A DNA stretch of 64,000 nt from Flammeovirgaceae bacterium. GTDB taxonomy: Bacteria > Bacteroidota > Bacteroidia > Cytophagales > Cyclobacteriaceae. Positions 53,349-61,737 of the stretch are shown in pieces (positions within the stretch are counted from its first letter, which is position 1; the number at the start of each line of letters is the position of its first letter). Both the position numbers and the translations under genes were made by a program. A model generated the notes under the pieces. The model was not told the origin of the DNA, ran no database searches, and worked only from the letters and a program-made list of their open reading frames with translations. The DNA lies in contig CP054185.1 of the NCBI GenBank assembly GCA_015180985.1, positions 868,001-932,000 on the forward strand, written 5' to 3'.

Positions 53349-53765
53349 ATGCCTATCCGCTATTTCTGCGAAGGGGTACAGTTTCAGGTATTACAGCCCC
53401 GAAAAAAATCGAAATGGCTGAACGCGGTGGTTAACAAGGAGGGCCATTCAGTTTCCTTAATCAATATTATTTTTTGCTCCGATTCATACCTGGCCAAACT
53501 AAACCGCAGGTATTTAGGGCATAAAACCTTAACCGATACTATTACATTTCAATATTCAGCACCACAAGAATCCATCGAGGGCGATATTTTCATCAGCATT
53601 CCTCGTGTTAAAGAGAATTCAAAAAAATTTAAAGTTGATTTTGACATTGAATTAAGCCGGGTCATGGTTCATGGCGTTCTTCATCTTTTAGGCTATTCCG
53701 ATAAATCATCCTCAGATAAGGCCATAATGCGCCTTAAAGAAGACACTTACTTATCTTTGCGATAG
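53349..53765 (+). CDS. ybeY: Endoribonuclease YbeY (rRNA maturation)
   Basis: The 138-residue protein is the metal-dependent RNase for 16S rRNA 3' processing. The active site is VHGVLHLLGYSDKSSSDKAIM. The usual third His of HGxLHLxGYDH is Asp here (GYSD), which I recall as usual in Bacteroidota. ITFQYSAPQESIEGDIFISI is also typical. It starts two bases after the ATPase stop. The first parS site begins at the last base of its stop codon. Confidence 0.94.
   Translation: MPIRYFCEGVQFQVLQPRKKSKWLNAVVNKEGHSVSLINIIFCSDSYLAKLNRRYLGHKTLTDTITFQYSAPQESIEGDIFISIPRVKENSKKFKVDFDIELSRVMVHGVLHLLGYSDKSSSDKAIMRLKEDTYLSLR
53752..53759 (+). promoter_or_regulatory. -7-like promoter box before mnmG
   Basis: TATCTTTG in the 3' end of ybeY matches TAnnTTTG, but no good -33 element is seen at the right distance. 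It lies 92 bases before the mnmG start, so a transcript from here would carry both parS sites in its leader. Confidence 0.35.
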
Positions 53766-53778
53766 TTTCACGTGAAAC
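53765..53778. promoter_or_regulatory. parS site 1 (ParB binding)
   Basis: GTTTCACGTGAAAC is a perfect 14 bp palindrome and matches the core of the bacterial parS consensus (TGTTTCACGTGAAACA). It begins at the last base of the ybeY stop codon. Confidence 0.85.
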
Positions 53779-53787
53779 CACAAGGGT

Positions 53788-53796
53788 TGTGGATAA
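53788..53796 (-). promoter_or_regulatory. DnaA box between the two parS sites
   Basis: TGTGGATAA on the plus strand is TTATCCACA on the minus strand, an exact match to the DnaA box consensus. A weaker copy (TGTGGAATT) follows at 53801-53809. Confidence 0.65.
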
Positions 53797-53826: not shown

Positions 53827-53840
53827 GTTCCACGTGAAAC
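53827..53840. promoter_or_regulatory. parS site 2 (ParB binding)
   Basis: GTTCCACGTGAAAC followed by A matches the classical parS form (TGTTCCACGTGAAACA) in 15 of 16 bases. It is 62 bp from site 1, centre to centre, and 11 bases before the mnmG ATG. Confidence 0.85.
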
Positions 53841-55714: not shown

Positions 55715-56607
55715 TGGAAGAGGTGCTTTCTTGTCCGGTATGCAACTCAGTTAAATTTGAGCACCATCTCGAGTGTATGGACCATGCACTGACCAAAGAA
55801 AAGTTTACACTAAAGCGGTGCATTCAGTGCGCGCTGGTAATTACTTCGCCCAGGCCCATTTCAGATAATCTAGCCCGGTATTACAATTTTTCTGCTTACA
55901 TATCGCACACAGGCAAAACAGATTCACTGCTCACAAGCTGGCTTTATAAATCAGCACGCGGCATTATGCTGCAACGTAAATATTCAATCATTAAAAAATT
56001 ATGTACAACTGGCCGGATTCTTGATGTTGGCTGCGGAACCGGGGAGTTCCTGAACACCATGCAAAACAGGGGTTGGGATGTAACCGGGGTGGAACCCTCG
56101 TCAGCAGCGAAAGCAAGGGCAGAAAAGTTGCTACAGAAACAATTATTTACCACGGTAGACGAGCTTTCTGAAAACGGGTATGATGTCATTACAATGTGGC
56201 ATGTGCTCGAACATATAGGTGGGCTTAATGAAGTTATCACTAAGCTGCGGAGTTTATTAAAGCCTGGTGGGCTATTGTGTGTTGCGGTTCCCAATTATCA
56301 TGCTTATGACGCTCAAAAATATGGCAGCGGCTGGGCCGGATATGATGTTCCGCGGCATCTTTGGCATTTTACAATAAATAGTATGACGGGCTTTCTTGAA
56401 AACAACCGATTCAACCTATTGCAAACAATTCCAATGAAACTTGATGCATACTATGTTAGCCTGCTGAGCGAAAAATTGATTAATCCTGATAAACCAATTA
56501 CAAACTACCTGCGGGCATTATATTCAGGCATATTATCAAACCTTAAAGCACGCAAAACATCAAATTATTCAAGTCTTATATTCCTTGCCAGGTTAAAACC
56601 GAACTGA
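55714..56607 (+). CDS. Class I SAM methyltransferase with N-terminal zinc-ribbon-like segment
   Basis: The 297-residue protein starts with two CxxC pairs (VLSCPVCNS and LKRCIQCALV) that may bind zinc, followed by a UbiG-like methyltransferase: ILDVGCGTGEFLNTM (motif I), VTGVEPSS and VITMWHVLEHI. A C-terminal segment (SLLSEKLINPDKPITNYLRALYSGILSN) is conserved in Bacteroidota homologues near glycan loci. It overlaps mnmG (TAATG) and the next gene (TGATG), so all three are coupled. Acceptor unknown; lipids or sugars are more likely than RNA. Confidence 0.9.
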   Translation: MEEVLSCPVCNSVKFEHHLECMDHALTKEKFTLKRCIQCALVITSPRPISDNLARYYNFSAYISHTGKTDSLLTSWLYKSARGIMLQRKYSIIKKLCTTGRILDVGCGTGEFLNTMQNRGWDVTGVEPSSAAKARAEKLLQKQLFTTVDELSENGYDVITMWHVLEHIGGLNEVITKLRSLLKPGGLLCVAVPNYHAYDAQKYGSGWAGYDVPRHLWHFTINSMTGFLENNRFNLLQTIPMKLDAYYVSLLSEKLINPDKPITNYLRALYSGILSNLKARKTSNYSSLIFLARLKPN

Positions 56608-58328
56608 TGCGGGTTCTGCTGGCTGTCTGTTTGGCGCAACTCAGTTTTAGTTGTGCCAAACAGACAACACCTACTGGGGGCCCCAAAGATGAGGGTGCGC
56701 CACAGTTAATTCGTTCGGTTCCGGCAAATCGGCAAACCAATTTTAAAGGCGACCAGATTGAATTGGTGTTCGATGAATATGTTCAGGTAAACAATGCACG
56801 TGAGCAAATTGTAATCGTCCCAACAGTCGGCAAAAAGTTCGAGGCGATAGCCAGGAAAAACAAAGTAACAATAAAACTTAACAGCACACTTCTTGATACC
56901 ACAACCTATACCATTAACTTCAGGGAATCCATCCAGGATTTAACCGAGAAAAATCCTGCAAAAAATTTAAAACTTGCTTTCAGTACAGGGCCTCACATTG
57001 ACTCGCTGTTTATAAAAGGAACCGTTAAGGATTTGCTGAAAGGAGTGCCTGCAGAAAATTTTACAGTAGCTATTGCTCCGCTCAACGACACGTTTAACAT
57101 CTTCAACCACACAGCCCAATTTTTTACGTTAACCGATAAAGAAGGTGAGTTCGCCATAGAAAATATTAAAAGGGGAAATTACCGCCTTTACGCCTTCGAG
57201 GATAAAAACAAAAATCTGAAGGTCGACAGTCGCAGTGAATCATTCGCATTTGTTTCTGATACACTGAGCTTAACACAATCAATTAACAGTCAGGTGTTGT
57301 ATGCCATTCGCCTCGACATGCGGCCCATCCGGTTAATTTCTGCCAAGCCAATTGCCAATCACTTTTTAGTCAGGCTCAATAAAGGATATTCAACCAGTAC
57401 TATCCAAAGTGTTTTAAAGGAATACAAGGTGCAATACGATATCCCTGAATTTTCAAGTTTACGCTTTTACAATACACTGACCGGACTTGACAGTTTGCCG
57501 GTTCGCCTCGTTTTAACTGATAGCCTTTTAAACACACTGGATACCACTTTATATATATCATTTAACAAAACCAGTCTGCAAAAAGATCGCTTTGAATTAA
57601 AGCCTCAGAACATGAGTTATGTGGAAAACAAACAATTGGTTAAAGGCGAACTCGTATTCACCAAACCGGTGGCTCATCTTGTGTATGACAGCATTTATAT
57701 CCGTGCAGATTCATTAACTACAGTAAAATTTACCAGCGAGGATTTTACCTGGGATGCAACCAATACAATTGCCAAAATCAACAAGCCGCTAACAAAAGCA
57801 CTCGATTTGACCGCGATCAAAGTGTCCAGAAACAACCCTAACCAACAAAGCCCGCGACTACCCGGGCAAGATACCAGGCGAGCCACTTCAGGAGCTAAAC
57901 CGGCTATAAAACCCACGGCCTCTAAACCCTACAATCAACTAATTATTGCAAAGGGCGCATTTATATCTGTCGAAGGCGACACAGTGGGTCATACCAGTCA
58001 GCCCTTTTCGGTAACAAAACCAGAAAATACCGCAACACTGTTAGTTGAAGCAGTTGGTGCCGGTAACATTATCGTGCAGCTACTAAATGCGGACTATAAG
58101 GTTGTTACTGAATCAACCCTAAAAAAACCGCGTTTTGATAATCTTCTGCCGGGAGAATACCAAATCCGTGTTGTACTAGATAAAAATGACAACGGAAAGT
58201 GGGATCCGGGAAATTACCATCTGAATATAGAGCCAGAAATGATTACCTTTTATACAGACGATACCGGCAGCAAAAAACTAAACCTAAAAGCAAACTGGGA
58301 GCTAGGACCCTTGTTAATTCGATATTGA
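56607..58328 (+). CDS. Big_5/Ig-like domain lipoprotein
   Basis: The 573-residue lipoprotein (lipobox LSFSC near residue 16, then AKQTTPTGGPKD) is a well-known Bacteroidota type. A bacterial Ig-like Big_5 domain follows (PQLIRSVPANRQTNFKGDQIELVFDEYVQV). The mature part also has SpaA/CNA-type insert sequences (KRGNYRLYAFEDKNKNLKVDSRSE and GEYQIRVVLDKNDNGKWDPGNYHLNIEPE). The start overlaps the methyltransferase stop. It is likely exposed in the periplasm or at the surface; function unknown. The AT-rich candidate oriC gap begins right after its stop. Confidence 0.85.
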   Translation: MRVLLAVCLAQLSFSCAKQTTPTGGPKDEGAPQLIRSVPANRQTNFKGDQIELVFDEYVQVNNAREQIVIVPTVGKKFEAIARKNKVTIKLNSTLLDTTTYTINFRESIQDLTEKNPAKNLKLAFSTGPHIDSLFIKGTVKDLLKGVPAENFTVAIAPLNDTFNIFNHTAQFFTLTDKEGEFAIENIKRGNYRLYAFEDKNKNLKVDSRSESFAFVSDTLSLTQSINSQVLYAIRLDMRPIRLISAKPIANHFLVRLNKGYSTSTIQSVLKEYKVQYDIPEFSSLRFYNTLTGLDSLPVRLVLTDSLLNTLDTTLYISFNKTSLQKDRFELKPQNMSYVENKQLVKGELVFTKPVAHLVYDSIYIRADSLTTVKFTSEDFTWDATNTIAKINKPLTKALDLTAIKVSRNNPNQQSPRLPGQDTRRATSGAKPAIKPTASKPYNQLIIAKGAFISVEGDTVGHTSQPFSVTKPENTATLLVEAVGAGNIIVQLLNADYKVVTESTLKKPRFDNLLPGEYQIRVVLDKNDNGKWDPGNYHLNIEPEMITFYTDDTGSKKLNLKANWELGPLLIRY

Positions 58329-58583
58329 TAACATGTGGAAAACTATCAGTAAAAGAGTACTTGCCTGCCTCCTTAAGTAAAAACGACTATTGCACAGAAA
58401 ATATGTTTACTAAATCAAGGTTAACCACATCCATTCACAAACCGTTTAATCAACAAAAGATTGCTATGCATAAATACCCATGCTGTTCATTACTATACTA
58501 AGCTGTTATAAACTAACCGGTTAAAACTCACAATAAATCCACAGGAAATAAAAAGTAACTTAGAGGTTTGAATCTATCCACAA
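58329..58583. other. AT-rich intergenic gap with DnaA-box-like cluster, candidate oriC
   Basis: The 255 bp carry no gene. Against TTWTNCACA, TTTTCCACA (minus strand, 58334-58342) matches fully. TATTGCACA (58388-58396), TTAACCACA (58421-58429) and CTATCCACA (58574-58582) each have one mismatch. CCATTCACA (58431-58439) and AAATCCACA (58535-58543) have two. AT-rich stretches between them could serve as an unwinding element. The parS pair is 4.6 kb away. No direct evidence of replication start. Confidence 0.45.
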
Positions 58584-60527
58584 ATGCCCACCGCTAATTA
58601 TAACAATACTATTATTAAATACGTTTTAATAATAAGCCATTTGACCTTGTGGTTAGAAACAGGACGAGCACAAAATCAAAATGAAATTCAGTTAGCAAAC
58701 GAGTATTTATTAAAAGGAGAGAAATCAAAAGCACTGGATATTTACCGCGATCTTGCCAAGAACGAGGTGAATGTTCCGTTTATTCATAATAACTATATCA
58801 ACTTACTTGTTGATGTCGGTGCCGCTGAGGAAGCACAAAATTACCTTAAACGGGTATTGCGCAGAGATGCGGATAATTTGCAGTACCGTGCTGATGTGGG
58901 TATAGTTTATGTTCGTTCTGGTGATCTTACCAGGGCTGATAAAGTTTTTAAAGAACTGATTGCAGAGAATAAAACCAATGTATCCCGGATTAAAATGCTT
59001 TCGGATTACCTGGCCAGCCGATCGTTGGCGGAATATGCCATCGTTGCGTTAACAGAAGGACGGGATGCCCTTGGCAATCCGTATTTATTTTGCCTAGAAC
59101 TGGCTTCGCTGTACCGGATTAAAGGGCAGAAGGATAAGATGGTACAGGAGTACCTTACCTACGTTATGCAAAGTTCGGCCAATACTCAGTATGTAAAGAA
59201 TGTAATGCAGGTATTGCTTACTCAGCCCGAAGAACTTGAAAGCCTTGAGAAAATCTTGTACGAACGTGTGCAGAAGTACCCGGATATGGAAGTGTATTCC
59301 GACCTGTTGGTTTGGGTTACTATGCAACAGAAAAATTTTAGCGCTGCCTTTATTCAGGCTCGTGCGTATGACAGGCGAAACAAAAAGTTTGGTGAAAAGT
59401 GCCTGGAGGTGGCGCGGGTCGCGCTGGATAATGAAGATTACAACAACGCCCTGTCCGCCTATGCCTATGTGGCGCGCGAATACCCCGATGGACCGTTTTA
59501 TCTCCAGGCACGGTTGGGGCTTATACGAACGCGCGAAACACGGGTACGCAACACCTTTCCGGTGCAAGCCGATTCGGTGCGGGCACTAATAACAGAATAC
59601 AAAAAGTTTATTAGTGAAAACCCCGACAATACCAATTCATACGAAGCGCAACGAAGCGAAGCACTGTTGTGGGCATATTACCTTGATGATAAAAGCAAAG
59701 CCGTTCAGTTACTTAACCAGTTAATAGGCAATTCCAGAGCTTCCTTGCAGTTAAAATCAAAAGCAAAGCTGGATTTAGGGGATATTTATTTACTCAATGG
59801 CGAACCCTGGGAATCGGCATTGCTGTATGCGCAGGTGGAAAAGTCATTAAAAGAAAACCCGCTGGGATATGAAGCCAAACTGAAAAATGCCAAACTCTCA
59901 TACTATAAAGGCGACTTCCGGTTAGCGCAGGAGCACCTGGATATATTGAAAGAGGCTACCACCCGCGAGATAGCCAACGATGCCATGGAATTGAGTATGC
60001 GCATAAAGGAAAATATTGCACTTGATTCAGCCGGACTGGCTTTGCAGGCATATGCAGTTGTTGAGTTGTTGTTGTATCAGAACAAAACCGATCAGGCACT
60101 GGAAGCAATAAAACAATTGAAAGAGGGAAGGTCAAAATTTTCAAAAGAAGATGCTTTCTTAAATAACTTTTCATTCGATGCTGCAACACAAGGCGATTCA
60201 GTTTGGGTAACCTTCAGCAACCACACTATTCTTGATGATGTGTACTGGCTGGAAGCAACCCTGCGGATGAAACGTGGAGAATTCGACAAATCGCTGGCCT
60301 TGCTTCAAAAAATTCTGGATGACTATTCGGAGGACGTCCTGGCTGATGATGCCTTTTTTATGCAGGCCGAAATCTACGATCGTCAACTAAACAACAAGGA
60401 TAAGGCTATTGAAATGTACAGGGAATTTCTGAACCGCTACCCGGGCAGTGTTTATGTAGCCGAAGCCCGCATGCGGTACCGGGTGCTGCGGGGGGATTTT
60501 GCCAATCCGCAGATAATAAACCCGTAG
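58584..60527 (+). CDS. Exported tetratricopeptide repeat protein
   Basis: The 647-residue protein has an N-terminal hydrophobic segment (TIIKYVLIISHLTLWLETGRAQ), probably a signal peptide, then TPR-like helices over the whole length (LLKGEKSKALDIYRDLAKNEV, RADVGIVYVRSGDLTRADKVF, LNGEPWESALLYAQVEKSL). The last repeats (FLNRYPGSVYVAEARMRY) resemble YbgF/BamD-type TPRs. It may scaffold an envelope complex. It follows the candidate oriC gap, and one DnaA-box-like 9-mer ends one base before its ATG. Confidence 0.85.
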   Translation: MPTANYNNTIIKYVLIISHLTLWLETGRAQNQNEIQLANEYLLKGEKSKALDIYRDLAKNEVNVPFIHNNYINLLVDVGAAEEAQNYLKRVLRRDADNLQYRADVGIVYVRSGDLTRADKVFKELIAENKTNVSRIKMLSDYLASRSLAEYAIVALTEGRDALGNPYLFCLELASLYRIKGQKDKMVQEYLTYVMQSSANTQYVKNVMQVLLTQPEELESLEKILYERVQKYPDMEVYSDLLVWVTMQQKNFSAAFIQARAYDRRNKKFGEKCLEVARVALDNEDYNNALSAYAYVAREYPDGPFYLQARLGLIRTRETRVRNTFPVQADSVRALITEYKKFISENPDNTNSYEAQRSEALLWAYYLDDKSKAVQLLNQLIGNSRASLQLKSKAKLDLGDIYLLNGEPWESALLYAQVEKSLKENPLGYEAKLKNAKLSYYKGDFRLAQEHLDILKEATTREIANDAMELSMRIKENIALDSAGLALQAYAVVELLLYQNKTDQALEAIKQLKEGRSKFSKEDAFLNNFSFDAATQGDSVWVTFSNHTILDDVYWLEATLRMKRGEFDKSLALLQKILDDYSEDVLADDAFFMQAEIYDRQLNNKDKAIEMYREFLNRYPGSVYVAEARMRYRVLRGDFANPQIINP

Positions 60528-60594: not shown

Positions 60595-61737
60595 ATGTGT
60601 CTGCTGAAAAATTTTGCTGCTTTTTTTTCGCTGGTTATAATACTTAGCGCATGCGAGCCCTTTGAATCAGGGCCCTCAGTTACAAGCCTGGAGCTGCCCC
60701 GCACCCCCTTTCAATACAACGTTCCCGGGGCTTCTGATAACCTGGTAACCCTGGGTCGGGTGTTGTTTTATGATACGCGCCTCTCTGTCAACAACGCTAT
60801 TTCGTGTGCGAGTTGTCACAAGCAGGTGTTGGCTTTCTCCGACAACGTTGCCTTTAGCCGGGGCTTTCAAAACAAACTCACCTTGCGCAACTCCATGCCC
60901 ATCCAGAACATTATATCCGATGTTTTTGCCGACAACGTGATTATTGAAGAAGATTCCACACCCGTAGTACTACCCGATACTGTTTTTGGATATTTGCCAG
61001 GTGTAGTGCCCCCTCCTGCATTTTTCCGTACAGATACACGACTTTTCTGGGACGGCCGCGAAACATCTCTTGAAAGCATGGTAACGCGCCCCATTATGGA
61101 TCATATTGAAATGGGTATGCACGATTTGCCCACCCTGGCAAAAAAATTGAAAACAATATGGGAGTATCAGCATCTTTTTACCAAGGCCTTTCCTGATGAA
61201 GATAATGTTACCCCGGATAAAATTTCCCTCGGGCTAAGCGCCTTCCTGTTAAGCATCCGTTCCAGCAATTCAAAAGTAGATAGGGCATCTCGTGGCGAAG
61301 CCAAACTCAGTGCCAGCGAAGAATTTGGCCAATTTCTGTTTACTCAAAAATTTGGTTGCGATGGCTGCCACGCGCTTGGCGGGTTTGCCAACATCGGGCT
61401 TGATGCACTTTCATCCGACCCGGGCCTTAGTTCGTTTACGGGCAATCCGAACGATGCCGGCAAATTTAAAATACCGGCTCTGCGTAATGTTCAATTAACA
61501 GCACCGTACATGCACGATGGCCGGTTTAAAACACTTGAGCAAGTGCTCGATCACTACAGCAGCGGCATAAAAAATAATCCAACATTAGATGGACTACTCC
61601 GTACGGAGGATGGTAAGCCCGTTCGTATGAACATGACTGCGGCAGAGAAGGCAGCGCTGATAAGTTTTTTAAATGCGCTTACAGACCACACGATGATCAC
61701 AGACCCCCGCTTTTCAAATCCGTTTAAACAATATTAA
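60595..61737 (+). CDS. Di-heme cytochrome c peroxidase/MauG-family lipoprotein
   Basis: The 380-residue lipoprotein (lipobox LSAC near residue 20) has two c-type heme motifs, CASCH at residues 71-75 and CDGCH at 255-259. MauG/CcpA features include FYDTRLSVNNAISCASCHKQ, FWDGRETSLESMVTRPIMDHIEMGM and ALRNVQLTAPYMHDGRFKTLEQVLDHY. The fold is that of bacterial cytochrome c peroxidase, which reduces H2O2 using a partner cytochrome, or MauG-type oxidase. It lies 12 bases before the next gene. Confidence 0.93.
   Translation: MCLLKNFAAFFSLVIILSACEPFESGPSVTSLELPRTPFQYNVPGASDNLVTLGRVLFYDTRLSVNNAISCASCHKQVLAFSDNVAFSRGFQNKLTLRNSMPIQNIISDVFADNVIIEEDSTPVVLPDTVFGYLPGVVPPPAFFRTDTRLFWDGRETSLESMVTRPIMDHIEMGMHDLPTLAKKLKTIWEYQHLFTKAFPDEDNVTPDKISLGLSAFLLSIRSSNSKVDRASRGEAKLSASEEFGQFLFTQKFGCDGCHALGGFANIGLDALSSDPGLSSFTGNPNDAGKFKIPALRNVQLTAPYMHDGRFKTLEQVLDHYSSGIKNNPTLDGLLRTEDGKPVRMNMTAAEKAALISFLNALTDHTMITDPRFSNPFKQY

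Follow-up and report, generated by a model that had tools for sequence, protein, structure and literature searches.

Origins of bacterial chromosomes usually lie adjacent to dnaA, and the genes that indicate them differ among species, as Ori-Finder 2022 has it. For the Bacteroidetes, PMC4755523, citing DoriC, reports that oriC is commonly found far from dnaA; such a location is therefore expected for the locus described here, and not new. The DoriC prediction for Prevotella intermedia in the same paper resembles our locus, with a DnaA-box cluster at the skew switch and a distant dnaA. Prevotella intermedia, however, represents another order of the Bacteroidota, and in the present case the mnmG block, the TPR gene, the parS sites and an architecture conserved in the clade have been worked out. 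In E. coli and Y. pestis, according to PMC10225481, the origins lie between gidA and mioC. As in the E. coli-type oriC, mnmG (gidA) is a near neighbour also here, although it stands 2.6 kb off with two genes between.

PMC8287927 searched for the basal unwinding system as a DnaA box, a spacer no longer than 16 bp and three or more.A. triplets; spacer lengths there peak at 10–13 bp. Our locus shares with it a box with one mismatch, a 13-bp spacer and four.A. triplets. It differs in that the triplets stand in the coding frame inside a protein gene, and its box-proximal triplet is AAT, whereas 3'-GAT-5' is given there as the most frequent type. In the open-licence papers listed by our searches we found no precedent for a chromosomal unwinding element in coding sequence, nor did we find an open-licence paper on a Cytophagales oriC with a DnaA box. 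Precedents outside chromosomes are the lambda ori, which lies within gene O, and oriL of P1, postulated within repL. Cytophaga hutchinsonii also belongs to the Cytophagales; its chromosomal oriC was reportedly used on plasmids in the 2012 work of Xu et al.

The stretch of DNA analysed here, the window, comprises 64,000 nucleotides (positions 868,001–932,000) of a single contig of 3,379,405 bp. It contains a 255-bp intergenic gap at 58329–58583 (926,329–926,583 on the chromosome), flanked by the open reading frames 56607–58328 and 58584–60527. The original prediction had proposed that this gap may be the replication origin, and the skew switch together with a box cluster conserved in relatives supports this view. 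We hence consider it very probable that the gap and the adjoining tract form the chromosomal oriC, as predicted by computation. The features computed for the locus are the skew switch, the box cluster, the uniqueness of the parS sites, conservation by place and the instability of the tract.

That the gap is gene-free and AT-rich was borne out by the list of open reading frames and by an AT content of 67.5%, compared with 54.3% for the window. It contains three one-mismatch matches to TTATCCACA (58334 on the minus strand, 58421 and 58574 on the plus strand) and three two-mismatch 9-mers (58447 plus, 58465 minus, 58535 plus). The original prediction had counted one full box besides three one-mismatch boxes; only the latter were found, as a perfect TTATCCACA is absent from the gap and its nearest copy is at 53788. 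A full box in the gap would presumably need the looser consensus TTWTNCACA. Only 1 of 2000 dinucleotide shuffles of the gap produced at least three boxes this close to the consensus (one mismatch at most; shuffle mean 0.084), so that the cluster stands above chance. The box count of the whole window is ordinary, with 23 observed and 15.7 expected (8 of 100 shuffles equal or exceed the observed count); only the local box cluster is unusual, and this cluster is real. Features of the box region, with mean mismatches from an alignment of 34 sequences unless stated otherwise, are as follows.

58329–58583, no strand: predicted oriC box region between the Big_5-domain gene and the TPR gene, from the box cluster and the sequence model
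58312–58320, minus strand: box site where the upstream gene ends, conserved but with a degenerate copy in the window (mean 2.00 mismatches)
58334–58342, minus strand: predicted DnaA box TTTTCCACA, one mismatch (mean 1.62)
58404–58412, minus strand: weak conserved DnaA-box site (mean 2.59)
58421–58429, plus strand: predicted DnaA box TTAACCACA, one mismatch (mean 2.47)
58447–58455, plus strand: weak DnaA box TAATCAACA, two mismatches (mean 2.79, 33 sequences)
58464–58472, plus strand: weak conserved DnaA-box site (mean 3.00)
58484–58492, minus strand: weak conserved DnaA-box site (mean 2.41)
58535–58543, plus strand: weak DnaA box AAATCCACA, two mismatches (mean 3.79)
58574–58582, plus strand: predicted DnaA box CTATCCACA, one mismatch, the best-conserved site, adjoining the unwinding tract (mean 1.03)
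58582–58590, plus strand: tandem weak box site 8 bp past the 58574 box, overlapping the TPR start codon (mean 2.91)

In this alignment, nine box sites had a mean mismatch of at most 3.0, compared with a background of 6.5. Within 104 kb around the skew minimum, the gap is the sole place with at least three boxes (at most one mismatch) in 300 bp, and the 674 kb sampled across the chromosome held two such clusters, the gap and 2,715,801–2,716,075. The latter (G000:C1:2715801-2716075), about 0.1 Mb from the opposite, terminus skew switch, was set aside; it is possibly a DnaA-titration site or a chance occurrence. The whole genome has 47 perfect DnaA boxes, with no tight cluster among them.

We also built a sequence-only model of 333 positions from 22 sequences, with the window but not L109 in the training set. 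Its match in the own genome, at 926,313–926,643, scored 5.3e-41, and the next best 0.17 among the best 150 of 723 candidates scored; because the window was in the training set, only the uniqueness of this match counts. Searched against 60 genomes of the family under stricter filters, the model matched 14, the own genome included, at 0.01 or better and missed 46. Six genomes drawn from the 13 non-self matches were placed (G018, G025, G030, G031, G033 and G035), and in all six the model match is at the TPR match or immediately upstream.

To the right of the box region, the following features adjoin it.

58584–60527, plus strand: TPR-repeat protein gene (open reading frame; Pfam TPR families) whose signal-peptide-like N-terminus is encoded by the tract
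58594–58643, plus strand: predicted DNA unwinding element within the start of the TPR coding sequence, less stable than any other 50-bp stretch in 104 kb
58596–58607, plus strand: DnaA-trio-like triplets AAT TAT AAC AAT in codon frame, 13 bp past the box, by the criteria of PMC8287927

By nearest-neighbour stability, 58594–58643 comes out as less stable than any other 50 bp in the 104 kb (−51.8; next −53.5). It starts 11 bp after the 58574 box, and a similar AT tract stands beside the box in relatives, after the weak tandem site. An AT-rich element of low predicted stability hence adjoins the box cluster, yet it is not inside the gap, where an unwinding region had been supposed, but just to its right; the interval first proposed is about 60 bp short on that side, where the predicted unwinding tract lies. 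Allowing up to two mismatches in the DnaA box and a spacer of 0–16 bp, we found the sequence pattern of a basal unwinding system, composed of CTATCCACA, 13 bp and the triplets AAT TAT AAC AAT. Among 42 close loci (the window and 41 relatives), at least three triplets occur at exactly 13 bp in 27, and likewise in 27 at 16 bp, which is the same phase as 13 bp. At other spacings the numbers were 7 for 10 bp, 0 for 11 bp, 12 for 12 bp, 1 for 14 bp and 6 for 15 bp; some spacing between 0 and 16 bp gave at least three triplets in 36 of the 42 loci, and none did in 6. The triplets are in codon frame (phase 0) in 34 of 42, but as a coding frame excludes stop codons, the contrast between spacings is expected in part and is weaker evidence for a DnaA-trio than the counts suggest. 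The box used for the triplet and tract measurements was chosen automatically, and the choice seems wrong in L089 and L109 and probably in L088.

The ATG of the TPR gene is at 58584, and the last box ends one base before this start codon. Since the tract also encodes the start of the signal-peptide-like N-terminus of the TPR protein, the same bases appear to serve both roles. The ATG follows the box by 1 bp in 10 and by 7 bp in 21 of the 42 close loci (31 of 42), in the same frame, and whichever position the ATG takes, the distance from box to AT tract is similar. In 40 of these loci the TPR frame stays open across the 50 bp of lowest stability within 1.5 kb, whereas over those bases frame +1 is open in 3 and frame +2 in 1. 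Alternatively, the tract might be noncoding within a real origin, with the TPR gene really starting downstream. TTG codons do occur further in, and the TPR start codon is itself predicted. Furthermore, in two exceptional Chryseolinea loci (L089 and L109) boxes and AT tract are kept while the TPR frame is closed and the first start is found downstream. We nevertheless regard an untranslated tract as unlikely, given how rarely the other two frames stay open and how regularly the ATG is placed behind the box; in the window, a downstream TTG start would also remove most of the signal-peptide-like N-terminus. In all 10 of the more distant loci with boxes (L114, L116–L122, L127 and L128), frame 0 is interrupted. 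Of the 5 loci without boxes described below, 3 keep it open across their least stable stretch, which in one of these three (L112) is inside the ORF, and an open frame alone therefore proves little.

Within the genus of the window, the tract lies inside the ORF in 17 of 17 loci, one from the own genome and 16 from relatives, although the place of L060 among these is doubtful because no box is near its least stable stretch. In other genera of the family this holds for 1 of 13 loci, one of which (L062) has only 29 bp upstream. There the tract is mostly found upstream of the first ATG, with an adjoining box pair in 9 of 13. At least three boxes are present in 15 of the 17 same-genus and 12 of the 13 other-genus loci. 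These counts and those from the 42 loci are not additive because the sets overlap and several genomes are shared. In 40 loci, codons ending in A or T make up 85% of the tract and 53% of the rest of the gene, and codons for Asn, Tyr, Ile or Lys 67% and 26%, respectively.

We take this arrangement to be derived, the start codon and the signal peptide having moved over the unwinding element. That the unwinding element of oriC is protein-coding is the reading we favour, with fair confidence. In more specific terms, we think it rather likely that in a genus-level clade the unwinding element and DnaA-trio tract turned protein-coding, with the TPR start codon between the last strong box and the tract. 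The triplets for DnaA would then be Asn and Tyr codons of the signal peptide. A single stretch of DNA would serve both origin melting and the expression of an exported TPR protein, two processes that DnaA bound at the start codon could couple.

A search for the TPR protein in contigs of relatives yielded 58 loci, of which 56 were profiled for boxes together with the window; L124 and L125, whose matches start at the edge of the locus, were excluded. Per 150 bp, the density of boxes was 1.2 and 1.6 in two bins between −400 and −100, and mostly 0–0.13 further upstream. Among the 51 loci with more than 5 kb of upstream sequence, the gene order ybeY, mnmG, methyltransferase, Big_5 is kept in 46, the last of these genes being the left neighbour of the gap.

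56607–58328, plus strand: gene for a protein with a Big_5 (bacterial Ig-like) domain, adjacent in 46 of the 51 loci of relatives

On the other side, a di-haem cytochrome c peroxidase gene (60595–61737) downstream of the TPR gene was seen in only 1 of 51 loci of relatives; synteny is therefore kept on the mnmG side and not on the other. In the remaining five loci (L110–L113 and L115), from two Adhaeribacter, a Microscillaceae MAG and two Pontibacter, no ybeY, mnmG, methyltransferase or Big_5 gene was found in the locus. Also, no exact parS was seen near the TPR gene in these five.

DnaA is also a transcription factor, and the boxes might merely belong to a DnaA-regulated promoter of the TPR gene, with the origin elsewhere nearby; the end of the last box one base before the TPR start codon would suit such a promoter. 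The relatives, however, argue against it. All 47 block-bearing loci, the window included, have boxes near the TPR start, at least three of them in 40 loci, and the mean upstream of the TPR gene is 4.06 per locus (n = 47). By contrast, the 600 bp before the TPR gene are free of boxes (one mismatch at most) in exactly the five loci lacking the block. Boxes thus accompany the mnmG block (47 of 47 loci) and are missing without it (0 of 5), so that they follow the chromosomal place and not the TPR gene. TPR genes that are located elsewhere and boxless (5 of 5) thus provide a clean control for an origin predicted in silico, and the origin of these five genomes is probably elsewhere. As the skew switch is also found at this locus, along with the genome's only exact parS sites, we reject a mere TPR promoter as very improbable and retain oriC as the predicted function of the box region.

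A genome scan for exact matches to GTTYCACGTGRAAC found two, both in the gap between ybeY and mnmG about 4.5 kb to the left, in agreement with the original prediction of two parS sites close by. Exact sites are hence confined to the origin region.

53765–53778, no strand: parS site GTTTCACGTGAAAC, one of the two exact matches in the genome
53788–53796, minus strand: perfect DnaA box TTATCCACA between both parS sites, in the ybeY–mnmG gap
53827–53840, no strand: parS site GTTCCACGTGAAAC, the other exact match in the genome
53852–55714, plus strand: mnmG (gidA) of the conserved block left of the origin (Pfam GIDA, 5.3e-166)

In 42 of the 47 block-bearing loci, an exact parS lies at most 700 bp from the mnmG start. 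Among 10 relatives picked for few contigs, 9 have one to three exact sites, 3.9–5.1 kb from the TPR gene, and one (G056) has none. Boxes at places like 53788 were seen in the relatives L072, L083, L085 and L123, and not in L076, L114 and L118. The perfect box between two parS sites might suggest that the ybeY–mnmG gap itself is the origin, and the raw skew fit described below does lie to the left of both gaps. Nevertheless, this intergenic interval measures only 86 bp here, and the 500 bp upstream of mnmG hold a mean of 0.79 boxes, with at least one in 29 of 47 loci and none in 18. Three or more boxes occur there in 0 of 47 loci, as against 40 of 47 upstream of the TPR gene. An origin in the parS gap was therefore rejected, and we give it even less credit than the promoter. 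The gap before the TPR gene remains the predicted oriC, with the parS sites as its neighbours.

GC skew was measured on 40 spaced stretches and the window, 674 kb in total (674 bins of 1 kb). Stretch skew is negative up to 916 kb with one exception (+0.002), positive from 932 kb to 2.55 Mb with one exception (−0.009), and negative again past 2.6 Mb with one exception at 3.04 Mb. A two-arc fit placed the origin at 917 kb (residual bootstrap 911–923 kb) and the opposite switch at 2,620 kb, with an arc of 0.504; its SS was 0.72, whereas 100 permutations reached 0.10 at most. When coding strand was added as a covariate and the other switch fixed at 2.55 Mb, the origin came to 932 kb (95% set 930–938 kb, 99% set 926–938 kb). 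The gap, at 926.4 kb, is found between the two estimates, 9 kb from the former and 6 kb from the latter. It is outside the raw bootstrap interval and the adjusted 95% set and just inside the adjusted 99% set, and the real precision of the placement is about 15 kb. The sign switch that the original prediction called for thus falls around the gap, and it is paired with an opposite terminus switch, though the skew locates the origin only to about 15 kb.

For relatives, skew was measured in five single-contig genomes on 20 stretches each, and in three of them the two-arc fit did better than any of 100 permutations. G004 changes sign between 160 and 270 kb, an interval that brackets the homologous gap at 214 kb. 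In G028 the change at 1.758–1.850 Mb is 8–100 kb off the gap at 1.750 Mb, although the fit put the switch 355 kb off. For G001, the sign change comes after 3.905 Mb, at least 0.13 Mb off the gap at 3.772 Mb. The other two (G040:C1 and G045:C1) gave no significant two-arm fit on their 20 stretches and hence no support. In all five single-contig relatives, dnaA lies at least 0.76 Mb from the TPR gene.

In the own genome, dnaA has a single match, at 125,572–126,945, about 800 kb from the gap, which confirms the statement that the window has no dnaA. The 15 kb around it contain six boxes with at most one mismatch, two of which, one perfect and one with one mismatch, lie about 0.7 kb upstream of the gene and may be autoregulatory. 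An origin beside dnaA, as in many bacteria, could draw on these two boxes, but dnaA sits inside the negative arm about 790 kb from the fitted skew switch, and no three boxes within 300 bp, the better cluster that would have spoken against the gap, occur in the 15 kb around it, so that we reject this location as virtually excluded.

For the predicted oriC at the gap, we infer DnaA binding, melting, initiation and ParB action along the following lines. DnaA would bind an array of three moderate and at least six weak boxes between 58312 and 58590. From the 58574 box, with the weak tandem site 8 bp on, it might extend onto the single-stranded triplets, and the AT-rich tract 58594–58643 would melt. 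The helicase could then be loaded at the melted tract and bidirectional replication would start, while ParB bound to the pair of parS sites, some 4.5 kb off, may segregate the new origins.

A predicted melting stretch inside the first codons of a neighbouring gene is unusual, and the protein-coding unwinding tract is the part that would be new, as we did not find it described in our searches of open-licence papers. The locus provides a concrete, conserved and testable predicted oriC for a group of Cytophagales that includes the culturable Chryseolinea serpens and Ohtaekwangia koreensis, with uses in oriC plasmids and in estimating growth rates from sequencing depth. Provided that the coding overlap is real, the start codons 1 or 7 bp past the box, with the tract similarly placed, represent a natural experiment on spacing. 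It would also mean that the unwinding element of an origin can evolve under two constraints at once.
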